From an uncultured Actinomycetes bacterium (GTDB taxonomy: Bacteria; Actinomycetota; Thermoleophilia; Gaiellales; Gaiellaceae): a DNA stretch of 34,582 nucleotides. The first letter of the stretch is position 1. The number at the start of each line of letters is the position of its first letter. A program made the translations under genes and the position numbers. The DNA is taken from assembly GCA_903915545.1 (NCBI GenBank), contig CAIWTI010000277.1:1-34582 (forward strand), in the 5' to 3' direction. The notes beneath the pieces were generated by a model that saw only the letters and a program-made list of their open reading frames with translations, was not told the origin of the DNA and did no database searches. Positions 4,414 to 25,007 of this stretch are shown here, piece after piece.

Positions 4414-6546
4414 GTGGAACGCTGGACACGTCTCGTTCTCCGTCTTCGCTGGGTCGTCGTGCTGGCGTGGGCCCTCATCCTCGTGGCAGGCGGGATCGCG
4501 AGTGGCAAGGTTGCCCCGCTGCTCTCAAACACGTTCTCTGTGCCGGGCACGTCGTCCGAGCACGTGAAGCTCGTGCTGCAGCAGCACTTTGGCGACCGTG
4601 CCGACGGTGCGTTCACCGTCGTCTACCAACTCGCTAACCCTGCGACCCCGGCCACAATCGCCCGACTCCAAGCCGTCAACGCACGCGCGGCTGCCACCAT
4701 TCCGACGGGCTCCGCAGGGCCGCTCGCGCCGGCGGGCAACAGGCTCGTCTACGGCTCAATCGTCTCGACTCTGAAGCTGGCCGACGCGAAGGCCTATACC
4801 GCTCCGCTGCTTCGCACCCTCGGCACCCCGCCTGGCGTCGCCCACACCTACGTCACCGGCGCGGCCGCGATCCAGCACGATCTCGACCCGATCTTCTCCC
4901 AAGACCTCAAGAAGGGTGAGGCGATCGCGATCCCGATCGCACTGCTTGTTCTGCTGCTCGTGTTCGGGCTCTCGCTATCGGTGACGATCCCGCTGATCTT
5001 CGCCGCGTGCACGATCACCGGCACGCTCGGCCTCGTCTATTTCGTTGCGCAGCTCGCCGAAACGCCCACCTACGCGACGAACCTCGTCGAGCTGATCGGC
5101 CTCGGCATCGCCGTCGACTACTCGCTCCTCGTCGTGTATCGGTTCCGCGAAGAGCTCGCCCGCGGCAGGAGCAAGGACGACGCGATTGTCCGCACGATGC
5201 AGACCGCTGGTCGCGCCGTCATCTTCTCGGGCGGCGCTGTCGCACTTGGACTCGCGTTGCTCGTGGCGATGCCACTGCCGTTCATGCGCATGCTCGGTGT
5301 TGCGGGCTTCCTGATCCCCGTGGTGTCAATCGCCGCCGCGGCCACCCTGCAACCTGCGCTGCTCTCGTTCTACGGCCAGCGGGGCACGGCGCGGCGACGC
5401 ATTCTGCCGGGCGAGCCAACCGATCCCGAGCGCGGCATGTGGGCACGGCTTGCCCGCTCGATCATGGCCCGGCCCGTCTGGTACCTCGTTGGCGGCACCG
5501 TGGTGCTTCTCGCCGCCGCCGCACCAGCCTTCTGGCTTCAGGTGACTCCCGGCTCGGCCTACGGCATCCCACGCAGCCCGCAGTCGGTCCGTGGTTTCGA
5601 CCTCTTGCAACGGCAAGTCGGGCCGGGTGCGATCGCGCCGAGCCAGATCTTGATCGACGCCGGCAGCGCCGCAGGTGTCAACGCACCAGCGATCCAAGCA
5701 GCGGCTGGACGCCTCGTCACGGAACTCCGCGCGGATCCCGAAGTTGCCTCGGCCCTCTACGCGCCAACAGGGCGCTTCGTTGACGCGACCAAGCGATACG
5801 CCCAAATCATCGTTGCGGGCCGCCACGATTACGGCTTCCCCGAGGAACAGACATTCGTCCACCGGCTGCGGGACACGCTCATCCCTCGGGCGAAATTCCC
5901 GCCCGGAACGGTTGTCCAGGCGGGCGGTGCCGCCCCGCAAGGCGTCGACTTCCTCCACCAGGCCTACAGCACGTTCGTCCCGCTGATCGCGGCCGTGCTT
6001 GTGCTCACGTACTTGCTGCTGCTGCGGGCGTTCCGCTCTGCGCTGTTGCCATTGAAGGCGGTGCTGCTCAACCTGCTCTCTGTCGGCGCAAGCTACGGCC
6101 TCCTCGTCGTCGTCTTCAAGTGGGGCCTCGGCCACTCCCTCCTCGGCCTCTACCACTTCGGGCAGGTCGAAGGCTGGATCCCGATCTTCCTCTTCGCCAT
6201 GCTCTTCGGCCTCTCAATGGACTACGAGGTCTTCCTCGTCACCCGCATGCGAGAAGCGTGGGACGACGGTGCCGACAACGTCACCGCTGTCGCCCATGGC
6301 CTCGAGCGCACCGGCCGGATCATCACCGCCGCCGCCGTCATCATGTGCGCCGCGTTCGCTGGCTTCATGGCCGGCCGGATCGTCGGCCTGCAGGAGTTCG
6401 GACTCGGGCTCGCCGTCGCCGTGTTCGTTGACGCCACGTTGGTGAGGTCAATCCTCGTTCCGTCGCTCATGGCGGTTCTTGGCCGCTGGAACTGGTGGCT
6501 TCCACCCTGGGCCGCACGCCTCGTACGCGTCGCTCCCGGTCGCTGA
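4414..6546 (+). CDS. MMPL/RND family membrane transporter
   Basis: 710 aa; MMPL-like motifs GLGIAVDYSLLVVYRFREEL and LFGLSMDYEVFLVTRMREAW, multiple TM segments, GTG start. Confidence 0.93.
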   Translation: MERWTRLVLRLRWVVVLAWALILVAGGIASGKVAPLLSNTFSVPGTSSEHVKLVLQQHFGDRADGAFTVVYQLANPATPATIARLQAVNARAAATIPTGSAGPLAPAGNRLVYGSIVSTLKLADAKAYTAPLLRTLGTPPGVAHTYVTGAAAIQHDLDPIFSQDLKKGEAIAIPIALLVLLLVFGLSLSVTIPLIFAACTITGTLGLVYFVAQLAETPTYATNLVELIGLGIAVDYSLLVVYRFREELARGRSKDDAIVRTMQTAGRAVIFSGGAVALGLALLVAMPLPFMRMLGVAGFLIPVVSIAAAATLQPALLSFYGQRGTARRRILPGEPTDPERGMWARLARSIMARPVWYLVGGTVVLLAAAAPAFWLQVTPGSAYGIPRSPQSVRGFDLLQRQVGPGAIAPSQILIDAGSAAGVNAPAIQAAAGRLVTELRADPEVASALYAPTGRFVDATKRYAQIIVAGRHDYGFPEEQTFVHRLRDTLIPRAKFPPGTVVQAGGAAPQGVDFLHQAYSTFVPLIAAVLVLTYLLLLRAFRSALLPLKAVLLNLLSVGASYGLLVVVFKWGLGHSLLGLYHFGQVEGWIPIFLFAMLFGLSMDYEVFLVTRMREAWDDGADNVTAVAHGLERTGRIITAAAVIMCAAFAGFMAGRIVGLQEFGLGLAVAVFVDATLVRSILVPSLMAVLGRWNWWLPPWAARLVRVAPGR

Positions 6547-18547: not shown

Positions 18548-18620
18548 GGGCCGTTAGCTCAGTTGGTAGAGCAGGGGACTCTTAATCCCAAGGTCGAAGG
18601 TTCGAGCCCTTCACGGCCCA
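18548..18620 (+). tRNA. tRNA-Lys (anticodon CTT)
   Basis: Cloverleaf by eye: acceptor GGGCCGT/ACGGCCC (7 bp), D-arm GCTCAGTTGGTAGAGC, anticodon loop CTCTTAA, T-arm GAAGG-TTCGAGC-CCTTC; CCA not encoded. Confidence 0.96.
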
Positions 18621-18887: not shown

Positions 18888-19553
18888 ATGTCAGATCTCC
18901 TCACGCTCGAAACGCTCGACGTTGACGGTGCGATCCGCGAATCCGCGGAGGCCGCGGGCCACTCCCGTGGTGCGTTTCTCACGAAGGCCGGTACGGGGAT
19001 TGGTGCCCTCATCGCAGGCGGTGCGTTGCTCGGCGCTCTGCCAGAGATCGCTTCGGCCGGCGTGTCGAGCGGCGACATCAAGATCCTGAACTACGCGTTG
19101 ACCCTTGAGTACCTGGAGGCTTCGTTCTACGCAGAAGCGGTGAAGAAGGGTGCACTGACGGGTGAGACGAAGGCATTTGCGAAGGTCGTCGCGGGCCACG
19201 AGGCCGCACACGTCACCGCCCTTAAGGGGACGCTCGGTTCAAAGGCCGTAGCCAAGCCGAAGTTCGACTTCGCAGATACGACCTCAAGCCAGGCGAAGTT
19301 CCAGGCGACATCCGAAGTCCTCGAGTACACGGGCGTGAGCGCCTATCTCGGGCAGGTCGGCCACATCAAGTCGGGTGCTGTTCTCGCCGCGGCTGGATCG
19401 ATCCTTCCTGTTGAAGCGTGGCACGCCGCATGGATCGCCGACATCCGGCGGCAGGGTGGGGCGCCGTACCCCGCTCCGGTGGCATTCGCCGCCGGTAAGA
19501 CCATGGCCCAGATTCTCACCGCAGTGAAGGCGACAGGCTTCATCGTCGTCTAG
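18888..19553 (+). CDS. Ferritin-like domain protein with N-terminal Tat/TM-like signal
   Basis: GHSRGAFLTKAGTGIGALIAGGALLGA signal-like segment; helices with LEYLEASFY, GHEAAHVTAL, EVLEYTGVSAY, VEAWHAAW (ExxH motifs); SD ggaagga upstream. Confidence 0.85.
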   Translation: MSDLLTLETLDVDGAIRESAEAAGHSRGAFLTKAGTGIGALIAGGALLGALPEIASAGVSSGDIKILNYALTLEYLEASFYAEAVKKGALTGETKAFAKVVAGHEAAHVTALKGTLGSKAVAKPKFDFADTTSSQAKFQATSEVLEYTGVSAYLGQVGHIKSGAVLAAAGSILPVEAWHAAWIADIRRQGGAPYPAPVAFAAGKTMAQILTAVKATGFIVV

Positions 19554-19901: not shown

Positions 19902-20909
19902 GTGACTCGGGGATCGATTTTCAAACTGCTCGCGTACGCCGTCGTCGCCGGTGCTGTGACGACCGCTGTCGCCGTTCTTATTCCGTGGTTGCCGACTGCA
20001 GCAACGCGTCAGGCAGACCGCATGTGGTTCTCCATCTGGTTCGCGGAGATCATCGCGATCGTCGTTTTCGCCGTCGTAGCAGCGGTTCTCGTCTACTGCG
20101 TGGTCGAATTCCGCGCGAAGCCGGGTGACCTGAGCGACGGCCCGCCGACCCATGGCCACACGATGCTGGAGATCATCTGGACGGCGATCCCAACGGTTCT
20201 CGTCGTGGCAATCACGATCGTGGCCGCCATCGTCATCCATGACAACGGGAAGGCTGGAGCGAATCCGCTCGTGGTCAAAGTGATCACGCAGCAGTTCACC
20301 TACCAATTTGAGTATCCGAACGGCAAGACGTACGACATCCTCCGTCTTCCGAAGGATCGCAACGTCAAGCTCGACCTCTCATCGAAGGACGTCATCCACT
20401 CATTCTGGGTGCCCGCATTCGGTGAGAAGTCAGACGCAGTCCCGGGGATCTCGACCTCGATTGTGATCACCCCGACGCGTACCGGCTACTACCCAGTCAT
20501 CTGTACCCAGCTCTGCGGTCTCGGCCACGCGCTCATGCGCAGCGAGGCGATCGTGCTTGAGCAGGCCGCATTCGACACCTGGTACACCTCGGCCGACGCA
20601 GCCCCCGCACCCGCTGCGGGTGGCGACGACGGTAAGACGATCTACACCACGGCTGGCTGTGGCGCGTGTCATACGTTCACTGCAGCGGGCTCGGCCGGAA
20701 AGATCGGACCGTCGCTCGACAACCTGAGCAGCGCGGCTGCAAAGGCCGGCCAGTCGCTGGACGATTTCATCAGCTCCTCCATTACTGATCCGGACTCAAG
20801 CCTGGCAGCCGGTTACGCCAAGGGTGTTATGCCCTCGACGTACAAGACCAGCATTTCGGGCACACAACTCGATTCACTCGTCAAGTATCTCGCGGAGAAC
20901 ACGAAATGA
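19902..20909 (+). CDS. ctaC: Cytochrome c oxidase subunit II with fused C-terminal cytochrome c domain (caa3-type)
   Basis: Two N-terminal TM helices, CuA motif CTQLCGLGHALM (20502-20537), C-terminal heme c motif CGACH with a downstream Met (KGVMPS). Confidence 0.95.
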   Translation: MTRGSIFKLLAYAVVAGAVTTAVAVLIPWLPTAATRQADRMWFSIWFAEIIAIVVFAVVAAVLVYCVVEFRAKPGDLSDGPPTHGHTMLEIIWTAIPTVLVVAITIVAAIVIHDNGKAGANPLVVKVITQQFTYQFEYPNGKTYDILRLPKDRNVKLDLSSKDVIHSFWVPAFGEKSDAVPGISTSIVITPTRTGYYPVICTQLCGLGHALMRSEAIVLEQAAFDTWYTSADAAPAPAAGGDDGKTIYTTAGCGACHTFTAAGSAGKIGPSLDNLSSAAAKAGQSLDDFISSSITDPDSSLAAGYAKGVMPSTYKTSISGTQLDSLVKYLAENTK

Positions 20910-22831
20910 CATCAGTCGCGCACGACCACCATCACGCTCCGGCGTCACCTTCCGGTCTCCGGAAGTTCACCGCCCCGGGCTGGTATCGCGTTCTCTGGAC
21001 GACGCCGCTCGTCGGTCTCATCGGCCTCGGCATCGTCGGCCTGATCCGCTCGGCAGCTGGTTGGGATCCCGTTTGGAAGTCCGGACCGCTCGCGACCGTC
21101 GGCACGGTCTCGTTCCCAATGGGCCTCCTGATTGGTCTTGGCGGCTTCGACTTTTGGACGTACTACGCATCGGGTAAGAAGACGCGCCCAGAGAGTCACG
21201 ATGGTCATGGTGCGACGAGCTGGAAGGACTACTTCCGGATCAACACCGACCACAAGGTGATCGGCATTCAGTACACGGTCACGACGATGTTCTTCTTCGT
21301 CGTCTCGGGCCTCATGGCGCTGCTTTTCCGTGCCGAGCTTGCGAAGCCGGGCGACCAGTACTTCAACCCGCAGACATTCAACATTCTTGTCACAGAGCAC
21401 GCGATCCTGATGATCCTGCTCGTGATTATCCCGGCGTTTGCCGGACTCGGAAACATCGTCATCCCGCTGATGATCGGCGCGTCTGACATGGCGTTCCCGA
21501 AGCTCAACGCGCTCTCGTACTGGCTGCTGCCGATCGCTGGCATCACGTTCATGGCCGGCATGTTTGCTCCGGGCGGCGGTCCGTCGGCCGGCTGGACGTG
21601 TTACGCGCCGCTCTGTGCGCATCAGCCCATGGGCAACATCTTCTTCAACATGGCCGTCCAGTGGGGTGGTGCGAGCTCGATCATGACCGCACTCAACTTC
21701 CTGGTCACGATCATCACGATGCGCGCGCCGGGCATGACGTTCTGGCGGATGCCGCTCCTCGTGTGGGCCAACTTCTCCACCTCGCTGCTCGTCGTGCTCG
21801 CCACGCCGTTCATCGCCGGCTCGCAGTTCTTCGAGCTCTTCGATCGCGTGATGCACACGAACTTCTTCGAAGCATCGGGCGGTGGGTACGTGCTCGGGTA
21901 CCAGCACATCTTCTGGTTCTACTCACATCCGGCCGTCTACATCATGCTGCTGCCTGGATTCGGGATCATCTCCGAGGTGATCGCGGTGATGAGCCGCAAG
22001 CCGATCTTCGGGTATCGCCTGATGGCTTTGTCATTGCTCGCGATCCTTGTGCTCGGCTTCTCGGTGTGGGCTCACCACATGTACGTCGCCGGCATGGCTG
22101 GCTGGCTGCGCGTGCCAATGATGGCTAGCACCTTGCTGATCGCCGTGCCGACCGGCATCAAGATCTTCTCGTGGCTTGCCACGATGTGGAACGGCAAGAT
22201 CAACTTCAACACGCCAATGCTGTGGGCGACGGGCTTCATCGCGACGTTCGTCATCGGCGGCCTCTCCGGCGTGTGGCTCGGCGCGGTGTCGATCGACATT
22301 CCGGTCAGCTCGACCTACTTCATCGTCGCGCACATCCACTACGTGCTCTTCGGCGGCTCGGTGTTCACGATCTTCACGGGCATCTACTACTGGTACCCCA
22401 AGGTCACGGGCCGGATGTACAACGAAAAGCTTGGGAAGCTGCATTTCTGGATGACGTTCATCGGCTTCAACGCAACGTTCTTCCCGATGCACTACCTCGG
22501 CACGCAGGGCATGCCGCGCCGCGTCGCTGACTACGCTCCGCGCTTCCACGACCTGAACGCGTTTGCGTCGATCGCCTCGTACTTCCTCGGGGCATCAACC
22601 GCCATCTTCCTTTTCAACATGATTTGGTCATGGACGAAGGGTGAAGTTGTTGGCTCGAACCCTTGGCGTGCAATGACACTCGAGTGGCAGGTCAGCTCAC
22701 CTCCGCCGATCTTCAACTTCGAAGAAGTGCCACAGATCGTCGGCGGCCCCTACGAGTTTGGCGTCCCCGGCGCCCGGCATGCCATCCTCGGCTCGGCGCA
22801 GGCAGAGCCGGTAGCTACCGGCGGCCACTAG
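20906..22831 (+). CDS. ctaD: Cytochrome c oxidase subunit I (heme-copper oxidase, A2-like)
   Basis: IFWFYSHPAVYIMLLPGFGIISE, PTGIKIFSW, MIGASDMAFPKLN, VAHIHYVLFGG; overlaps ctaC by 4 nt; N-terminal extension of about 110 aa. Confidence 0.96.
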   Translation: MTSVAHDHHHAPASPSGLRKFTAPGWYRVLWTTPLVGLIGLGIVGLIRSAAGWDPVWKSGPLATVGTVSFPMGLLIGLGGFDFWTYYASGKKTRPESHDGHGATSWKDYFRINTDHKVIGIQYTVTTMFFFVVSGLMALLFRAELAKPGDQYFNPQTFNILVTEHAILMILLVIIPAFAGLGNIVIPLMIGASDMAFPKLNALSYWLLPIAGITFMAGMFAPGGGPSAGWTCYAPLCAHQPMGNIFFNMAVQWGGASSIMTALNFLVTIITMRAPGMTFWRMPLLVWANFSTSLLVVLATPFIAGSQFFELFDRVMHTNFFEASGGGYVLGYQHIFWFYSHPAVYIMLLPGFGIISEVIAVMSRKPIFGYRLMALSLLAILVLGFSVWAHHMYVAGMAGWLRVPMMASTLLIAVPTGIKIFSWLATMWNGKINFNTPMLWATGFIATFVIGGLSGVWLGAVSIDIPVSSTYFIVAHIHYVLFGGSVFTIFTGIYYWYPKVTGRMYNEKLGKLHFWMTFIGFNATFFPMHYLGTQGMPRRVADYAPRFHDLNAFASIASYFLGASTAIFLFNMIWSWTKGEVVGSNPWRAMTLEWQVSSPPPIFNFEEVPQIVGGPYEFGVPGARHAILGSAQAEPVATGGH

Positions 22832-22835
22832 TGCC

Positions 22836-23645
22836 GTGCCTCACATCCTCGTGATCGCGAACGAGACAGCTGCTTCCCCGGCGCTCCTCGATGCCCTGCG
22901 CACCCGCAGTGGAGAAGAGGGCCTCTCGGTGACGATCATCGCCCCGGTCAACGAGCCGCGCCACGGGTACGTCGTCTATGAAGACACCCGTCGCGCCTCG
23001 GCAGGTCGTCGCGTTGAACGTCTGCGCAACCGCCTCATCGAAGAAGGCATCGCCGCACAGGCGTATGCCGTCGAGACAGGCCCTGTCCAGGCGGTCAAGG
23101 ACGCGCTCGTGCAGCTCAGCCCGCAGCCGACAGAGATCGTGCTTTCGACAAACGCGCCCGAGCGCTCGAGCTGGCTCCGTCGCAACGCGCTTGCCGACAT
23201 CGAGAAGGCCGCAAAGGGTATGACGGTGCGGCACCTCATCGCCGAGGACGACAAGGCCCCGGCGATCGAGAAGAACATCCTCGTTGTCGCCAACGAGACC
23301 GTTGTGTCGCGCGATCTCCTTCAGGCGATCCGTGCTCGGCACGCTGCAGGAGAAGCAAGCTTCTTGATCATCGCGCCGCAGAGCGACGATGAGCATCATC
23401 CGGAGGCAGAACGGCGTCTACGTCGCGCAGTGTCTGTGCTTCGCACCGACGGGATCGATGCGCACGGCCAGGTCGTGCACCCCGACCCCTTCACCGCAAT
23501 TCTTGAAGCGACCGATGACGAGGTCATCGACGAGATCATGATTTCCACGTTCCCTGGCCAGCGCTCCGGCTGGCTCCGCCGCGATCTGGTGGAGCGAGTT
23601 CGCAAGGAGACAGGCCTTCCCGTCGACCATGTGGTGTCCGAATGA
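22836..23645 (+). CDS. Tandem-duplicated Usp/Rossmann-like domain protein of unknown function
   Basis: Two halves align by eye: PHILVIANETAASPALLDALR...EIVLSTNAPERSSWLRRNALADIEK and KNILVVANETVVSRDLLQAIR...EIMISTFPGQRSGWLRRDLVERVRK; GTG start 5 nt after ctaD; overlaps ctaE by 4 nt. Confidence 0.85.
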   Translation: MPHILVIANETAASPALLDALRTRSGEEGLSVTIIAPVNEPRHGYVVYEDTRRASAGRRVERLRNRLIEEGIAAQAYAVETGPVQAVKDALVQLSPQPTEIVLSTNAPERSSWLRRNALADIEKAAKGMTVRHLIAEDDKAPAIEKNILVVANETVVSRDLLQAIRARHAAGEASFLIIAPQSDDEHHPEAERRLRRAVSVLRTDGIDAHGQVVHPDPFTAILEATDDEVIDEIMISTFPGQRSGWLRRDLVERVRKETGLPVDHVVSE

Positions 23646-24259
23646 GCGCAGCAGCTGAAGCACACGAACATCACGGCCCGCCACCGATCCATTACAGCTC
23701 GCGGATCAACCCGGCCGTACTCGGAATCTTTCTCTTCATCGGGTCGGAGATCATGCTCTTCGGCTCGTTCTTCACGGCCTATTTCTTCGATCGGATCGTC
23801 GCGCGTCCGGCCCAGTGGCCGCCGCTCGACGCTGCCGGCGTGCCGTTTGAGCGGCCGTGGTTCCTCGCGCTCATCAACACGTTGATCCTCGTCACGTCGA
23901 GCTTCACGATCCACTGGGCAACCGTGGCGTGTAAGCGCGGAAACCGCGCGGGCCTTCAGGCCGGCATGGTGCTGACGTTCCTGCTTGGTCTCACGTTCCT
24001 ACTCACGCAGGTCATCGAGTACCACCGCATCGGGTTCAACACGCACGACACCGCGTTCGCGGCCACGTTCTTTGGCCTCACCGGCCTTCATGGATGCCAC
24101 GTCTTCATCGGCCTCCTGATCCTGCTCGCCATGACGATCCGTGCTTTCCGCGGACACTTCTCACCCGAGTCGCACCACGGGCTTGAGGTGGGCGGTATCT
24201 ACTGGCACTTCGTCGACGTCATGTGGATCGTCGTTTACGTCACCGTCTACGTGCTCTAG
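23642..24259 (+). CDS. ctaE: Cytochrome c oxidase subunit III
   Basis: 205 aa, multiple TMs; LGIFLFIGSEIMLFGSFFTAYFF, GLTGLHGCHVFIGLL, YWHFVDVMWIVVYVTVYVL. Confidence 0.95.
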   Translation: MSAAAEAHEHHGPPPIHYSSRINPAVLGIFLFIGSEIMLFGSFFTAYFFDRIVARPAQWPPLDAAGVPFERPWFLALINTLILVTSSFTIHWATVACKRGNRAGLQAGMVLTFLLGLTFLLTQVIEYHRIGFNTHDTAFAATFFGLTGLHGCHVFIGLLILLAMTIRAFRGHFSPESHHGLEVGGIYWHFVDVMWIVVYVTVYVL

Positions 24260-24271
24260 GGGCTGCGAAAA

Positions 24272-24652
24272 GTGCGCAAAGCTTTCATCATCATCCTCGC
24301 CGCCACCGGCCTTCTCACCGCAGGATGCGGTGCAGTCGGAATGGTCAAGTCGGGCGACGCCGCGAAGGGCAAGACGCTCTACATGTCCAAGTGTGCGAGC
24401 TGCCACGTTCTCAACGACGCAGGGTCGACAGGCGTTGTCGGTCCGAACCTCGACGACTCGTTTGGCCCCGACTACTGCCAGGGCTTTAGCGAGCAGACCG
24501 TTCGTGACGTCGTCCGCGGTCAGATCGCATATCCCGAGATGCCAATGCCGGCCGACATCGTCCGCGGCAGCGAAGCCAACGACATCTCGGTCTACGTCGC
24601 ATCGATCGCCGGTAACAACTACGACTGCTCGACGTACGCAGGAGCGAAGTAG
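24272..24652 (+). CDS. Lipoprotein-type small cytochrome c
   Basis: Lipobox LLTAGCGA, heme motif CASCH, Met-containing MPMPADIV; directly after ctaE. Confidence 0.9.
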   Translation: MRKAFIIILAATGLLTAGCGAVGMVKSGDAAKGKTLYMSKCASCHVLNDAGSTGVVGPNLDDSFGPDYCQGFSEQTVRDVVRGQIAYPEMPMPADIVRGSEANDISVYVASIAGNNYDCSTYAGAK

Positions 24653-24716: not shown

Positions 24717-25007
24717 TTAGCTCGGCGAGTCGGGGGGCTCGTTCGGTGCGAGCGCGTGCGTCTCGCTCGCGGTCGCGTCCGCAGGGACCGAAGCGGGGGG
24801 ATCAGGCAGAAGGAAGACGTTCTCCTCGTCCGCCGAGCGCGGCGCTGGCCGCGAGAACCACCACCCGGCCGCCGCGGTGAGGATCAGGAAGACGGCGAGG
24901 CCGAGCCAGCGGTCGAGCTTCGCACCGAGCACGATCAAGCCGAAGTACCCGATGAGACCGAGCAGGAAGCGGAACGCTGTCTCCTCATTCTTCACGGGAT
25001 TACGCAT
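24717..25007 (-). CDS. Hypothetical membrane protein
   Basis: 96 aa with two TM segments (FLLGLIGYFGLIVLGAKL; WLGLAVFLILTAAAGWWF) and a Pro/Ala/Glu-rich tail. Confidence 0.65.
   Translation of the reverse strand: MRNPVKNEETAFRFLLGLIGYFGLIVLGAKLDRWLGLAVFLILTAAAGWWFSRPAPRSADEENVFLLPDPPASVPADATASETHALAPNEPPDSPS

Follow-up and report, generated by a model that had tools for sequence, protein, structure and literature searches.

A predicted tandem universal stress protein-fold module encoded in the A2-type caa3 oxidase operon of an uncultured actinobacterium

Introduction

To our knowledge, few cases are known in bacteria of a cytoplasmic sensor domain that directly controls a terminal oxidase. 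We also know of no function for the Thermus thermophilus protein TT0030 (PDB 2IEL). Among the members of the universal stress protein (USP) superfamily (PF00582) are tandem proteins such as TTHA0350, UspE and Rv2623, and domains of this fold also occur on membrane machines. So far as PMC5549992 presents it, Rv2623 acts with the transporter Rv1747, and it is cited as a USP-fold regulator of a membrane machine. TeaD, in the account given by PMC8280820, is a USP that belongs to the TRAP transporter TeaABC and regulates it, transport rising when TeaD is deleted. The KCC/NKCC transporters, themselves membrane proteins, bear a tandem of USP-like lobes at their cytoplasmic C-terminus (PMC8280820), and the membrane protein KdpD contains a USP-fold sensor domain that has been seen bound to c-di-AMP (PDB 7JI4).

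Here we analyze a stretch of 34,582 nucleotides from an uncultured Actinomycetes bacterium of the Gaiellaceae (contig CAIWTI010000277.1; hereafter the window), in which a gene between ctaD and ctaE is predicted to encode a soluble protein of two USP-fold domains (U1 and U2; the whole protein is termed UU). The U domain resembles TT0030 in family, fold and SxWLR motif, but TT0030 is a single domain whereas UU is a tandem. With the USP superfamily and its tandem members UU shares both fold and arrangement; however, its ATP motif is replaced, it falls below the Pfam cut-off that some of its relatives reach, and it belongs to an oxidase operon, as a gene of its own or as a fusion. Like TeaD as discussed in PMC8280820, UU is encoded with a membrane machine, although TeaD is a single domain, binds ATP and has a transporter as its partner. 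The KCC/NKCC lobes are placed as in the CtaD-U-U fusions described below, but they belong to eukaryotic-type transporters with an ATP/ADP site in the inner lobe (PMC8280820), and their C-terminal domains were matched to UU by Foldseek only, with no sequence similarity found. The KdpD domain differs in being single, in belonging to a histidine kinase and in having 10% identity. What we propose is a USP-fold accessory module, in itself of a known sort, on a terminal oxidase. An initial annotation of the window knew of no standard cox operon component with this architecture, and our literature searches for a USP-oxidase fusion or for 2IEL likewise found nothing relevant and no description; the domain itself, on the other hand, does have a relative in 2IEL.

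Results

The genes of the locus are ordered ctaC-ctaD-UU-ctaE-cytochrome c (Table 1). Four bases separate the end of ctaD (22831) from UU, and the UU stop codon TGA (23643-23645) overlaps the ATG of ctaE (23642) in a 4-nt ATGA, which confirms the overlap with ctaE given in the initial annotation. Judged from the YSHPAVY motif and the cytochrome c domain on subunit II, the oxidase is of the A2-type caa3 class. A second, shorter CtaD of the same genome (contig C199) is without a U domain, and this ties UU to the A2-type caa3 oxidase at this locus. In comparison with two close relatives, synonymous changes greatly outnumber non-synonymous ones in UU, with dN/dS of 0.11 for U1 and 0.02 for U2, values comparable with those of ctaD and ctaE. 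UU is therefore a real, selected gene under strong purifying selection. No transmembrane segment was predicted in the UU protein.

Table 1. Positions of UU, its domains and motifs, and the neighboring oxidase genes in the window.
Feature	Position	Strand	Description	Evidence
ctaC	19902-20909	+	Subunit II with C-terminal cytochrome c domain (CGACH)	
ctaD	20906-22831	+	Subunit I, 641 aa, COX1 (PF00115); YSHPAVY, A2-type	
UU	22836-23645	+	Tandem USP-fold protein, 269 aa, GTG start	ORF call, translation, half-half alignment, model
U1	22836-23246	+	First USP-like domain, long form, faster-evolving half	Alignment, tree, dN/dS
A-N-E-T of U1	22857-22868	+	Follows strand 1	Conservation; predicted strand 3-8
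RSSWLRR of U1	23163-23183	+	At the site of the USP ATP motif	Translation, profile alignment, motif scan
U2	23268-23645	+	Second USP-like domain, short form, very strongly conserved	Alignment, dN/dS, model
A-N-E-T of U2	23289-23300	+	Follows strand 1	Conservation; predicted strands
RSGWLRR of U2	23562-23582	+		Translation, profile alignment, motif scan
ctaE	23642-24259	+	Subunit III (COX3); 4-nt overlap with the end of UU	
Cytochrome c	24272-24652	+	Small, membrane-anchored (CASCH)	
Two-TM protein	24717-25007	-	Homologue of the N-terminal part of 2TM+U proteins in relatives; U domain missing	

The two halves of UU are homologous, as the initial annotation had stated: they align over 134 columns with 34% identity (58.5 bits, E 6e-17), and their Smith-Waterman score of 154 is far above that of shuffled sequences (mean 29, sd 5, maximum 58, n=1000). 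Searches of Pfam and NCBIfam gave no acceptable match to UU and no Usp match; matches to DUF3197, SurE, Hfq and DotU were rejected as being below cut-off and not common to the family. A profile built from 29 related domains found 2IEL in hmmsearch with an E-value of 3.4e-17 over 130 positions (3-132), with the ATP-binding USP MJ0577 far behind. Pfam Usp (PF00582) was weakly matched by 14 of the 29 profile members, and two full-length relatives scored 30.5 bits (L034) and 24.0 bits (L070) against its gathering cut-off of 24. AF2 models had pLDDT values of 86 for the tandem and 94 for U2 alone. Foldseek placed 2IEL first for these models, followed by USPs and tandem USPs (TTHA0350, UspE, Rv2623); other matches were USPs with AMP or cAMP, the KdpD USP domain with c-di-AMP and the USP-like C-terminal domains of KCC/NKCC. 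The models have the five-stranded parallel alpha/beta HUP fold, with TM scores to USPs of about 0.6-0.75. Taken together, the profile and AF2/Foldseek matches identify the U domain as a divergent branch of the USP fold, in line with the USP/HUP-type Rossmann fold suggested earlier. By sequence, then, the domain is not an orphan but kin to TT0030, and its best match is a protein of solved structure and uncharacterized function.

Both halves contain ILVxANET and RSxWLRR. The site matching A-N-E-T after strand 1 is that of the adenine-binding Asp in USPs. The USP nucleotide motif G-2x-G-9x-G(S/T), as defined in PMC3673472, is present in 0 of the 83 domains checked, and its replacement in the window is thereby upheld; at the same site most of the 83 domains have S-x-W-(L/M), in the window ST..RSxWLRR. 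The conserved RS(S/G)WLRR motif of the initial annotation is thus found in both halves of UU, but RSxWLRR in its full form is a typical trait of cox-linked tandems and is not universal, and across relatives the motif is really SxW(L/M). Together with N/T after strand 1, P37, H and others, S-x-W-(L/M) makes up the conserved core among relatives. The invariant N, T, P, T, S, W and H lie mostly directly C-terminal to predicted strands, and the ends of strands are the usual ligand edge in such folds; these residues may therefore form a pocket. SxW(L/M) is lost in one half in two families, the first in f8 (L150-L152, L156, L083) and the second in f5 (L119-L124), suggesting a division of labor between the halves.

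In the domain tree all UU second halves form one clade (96/90) and all first halves fall on one side of a weakly supported branch (59/90), a topology consistent with one old duplication. The cox-linked tandem halves are apart from the standalone copies; deep forks are weak, also where the fused domains of f5 are placed, and these could be the tandem in either order.

The domain was found in 129 of 199 genomes of the class and in 74 of 297 genomes of the phylum. In nearly all of the loci from the window's family (f1) that were examined first, the tandem is located between ctaD and ctaE, and a third U copy often follows ctaE, in a protein made of two TM helices and one U domain (2TM+U). The order ctaD-UU-ctaE also occurs in f8, f10, f11 and one genome outside the class. 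The survey of cox operons that the initial annotation had proposed thus found UU present in most relatives, fused in others and missing from about 7/36 of f1; linkage or fusion to ctaD is conserved, as for an accessory subunit of the A2-type caa3 oxidase. For f1 the figures, about 29 genomes with UU and 7 without among those with a readable ctaD locus, are a hand count comparing the domain survey with the ctaD survey. One locus scored as lacking UU (L035) does contain it; ctaD and ctaE share a frame there, which produced a false score.

In the seven f1 genomes without UU (G010, G016, G123, G187, G198, G211, G218) ctaE directly follows ctaD, and the two genes are likewise adjacent, with UU missing, in f3, f12 and one f10 genome. 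Such clean absence indicates that the oxidase works without UU, and that UU is accessory rather than a core cox subunit (I-IV). The 2TM+U protein persists in four of the seven genomes. Among them is G010, of the same genus as the window, which has lost UU and kept 2TM+U; the window genome is the reverse, having UU and, on the opposite strand, a 2TM protein without a U domain.

In-frame fusions of U domains to CtaD occur in at least two families. CtaD of f2 carries one U domain. In f5, CtaD-U-U is a single ORF in which both domains were confirmed by translation in 6/6 genomes examined (L119-L124; e.g., L122:2995-5742): these CtaD proteins are 913-981 aa long and end in two USP-fold domains, of which Pfam sees nothing beyond COX1, and a linker of ~20 aa separates these domains from GARHA, the conserved end of CtaD. 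Of the 36 f5 genomes in which CtaD was matched over its full length, about 35 have CtaD open frames of 913-1008 aa, a count by us of frame lengths that suggests fusion and is backed by translation in the six. Long open frames over UU in many f1 genomes (about 920-1120 aa) were rejected as fusions, their frame differing from that of ctaD. The fusions imply that the U domains touch subunit I of the A2-type caa3 oxidase at its cytoplasmic C-terminus, and contact of the predicted U module with CtaD is well supported.

Away from cox, the window genome also has standalone U paralogues and canonical USPs. One standalone single U domain (L157, G000:C209, 8879-9352, + strand), which the tree places near the 2TM+U copies, has a PfkB-like kinase and an MFS-like transporter as neighbors by ORF reading. 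Canonical USP domains at G000:C10:4091-4483 and 6118-6519 lie in open frames of 649 and 630 aa, perhaps as fusions with other domains. The neighbors of standalone U genes in other classes showed no common theme, and a plasmid search for a 2IEL-like protein, aimed at the Thermus context, gave no match.

Discussion

We consider it probable that UU is a cytoplasmic USP-fold module docked on CtaD, accessory and regulatory, that tunes the activity or assembly of the oxidase. The C-terminus of heme-copper oxidase subunit I is in the cytoplasm and the fused domains start soon after it, which places them on the cytoplasmic face near the CtaD end; from the same topology, UU is expected on the cytoplasmic side. 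The unfused UU genes in the same position would most simply encode the same module, and UU would dock on the cytoplasmic C-terminus of CtaD. A-N-E-T, P, ST..RSxWLRR and H at the C-terminal edges of strands most likely represent a remodeled ligand- or protein-binding pocket, the occupancy of which would shift the seating of the module on CtaD and so tune oxidase activity or assembly. That UU regulates activity or assembly is suggested by analogy, since USP domains on membrane machines are known regulators.

More tentatively, subunit I may carry UU as a tandem USP-type sensor. UU would then bind a small molecule of the cytoplasm, whether an adenine nucleotide, cAMP, c-di-AMP or another compound, in a novel pocket built on SxWLRR, and would control the rate or coupling of respiration allosterically. 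If so, terminal oxidase activity would be gated directly by the energy or stress state of the cell. With the ATP motif lost, canonical ATP binding is less likely, but this does not speak against every ligand. Against the reading of UU as a docked regulatory module stand its clean absence from some relatives, the lost nucleotide motif and the disappearance of SxW(L/M) from one half in f8 and f5. USPs with fully degenerate motifs mostly show no ligand (PMC3673472), although in TTHA0350 the degenerate half does bind ATP.

We regard as rather unlikely a dedicated assembly or stability factor with no small-molecule ligand, in which UU would hold the CtaD C-terminus, bridge subunits I and III in biogenesis, or scaffold oxidase dimers or supercomplexes. 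Absence of the USP nucleotide motif from 83/83 domains would suit such a factor, yet the pocket-edge residues are among the most conserved, beyond what is expected of a plain scaffold. Tandem domains are natural dimerization modules and, like the fusions to the CtaD C-terminus and the position of the gene between subunits I and III with its overlap with ctaE, would fit this role, which agrees less well with the clean loss of UU from relatives with otherwise similar oxidases and with the third, membrane-anchored copy often found downstream of ctaE. We also rejected the idea that UU is a cox assembly factor already described, since USP goes unmentioned in a review of these proteins in bacteria (PMC9145763). 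That UU is an ordinary USP merely co-transcribed with the cox genes and acting elsewhere in the cell is improbable, for although the fold, the standalone paralogues and canonical USPs of this genome, and the unrelated neighbors of standalone relatives in other classes would allow it, CtaD is fused in frame to U domains in at least two families and the cox-linked halves are apart from standalone copies in a tree with weak deep forks.

The evidence favors a regulatory or docking module for UU, not separated from an assembly role; the oxidase-dedicated role put forward in the initial annotation agrees with the conserved ctaD-ctaE placement and the CtaD fusions. This reading offers a likely function for an orphan domain whose structure was solved in 2006 (2IEL), and gives an extra component to look for in the A2-type caa3 oxidases of this actinobacterial class. 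A natural test construct exists in f5, with two USP-fold domains joined to CtaD throughout the family.

Two further features lie upstream of the cox operon: a ferritin-like gene (PF13668; window 18888-19553, + strand), found at the same position in L005, and a tRNA-Lys (CTT) at 18548-18620 (+ strand), whose overlapping ORFs are spurious.
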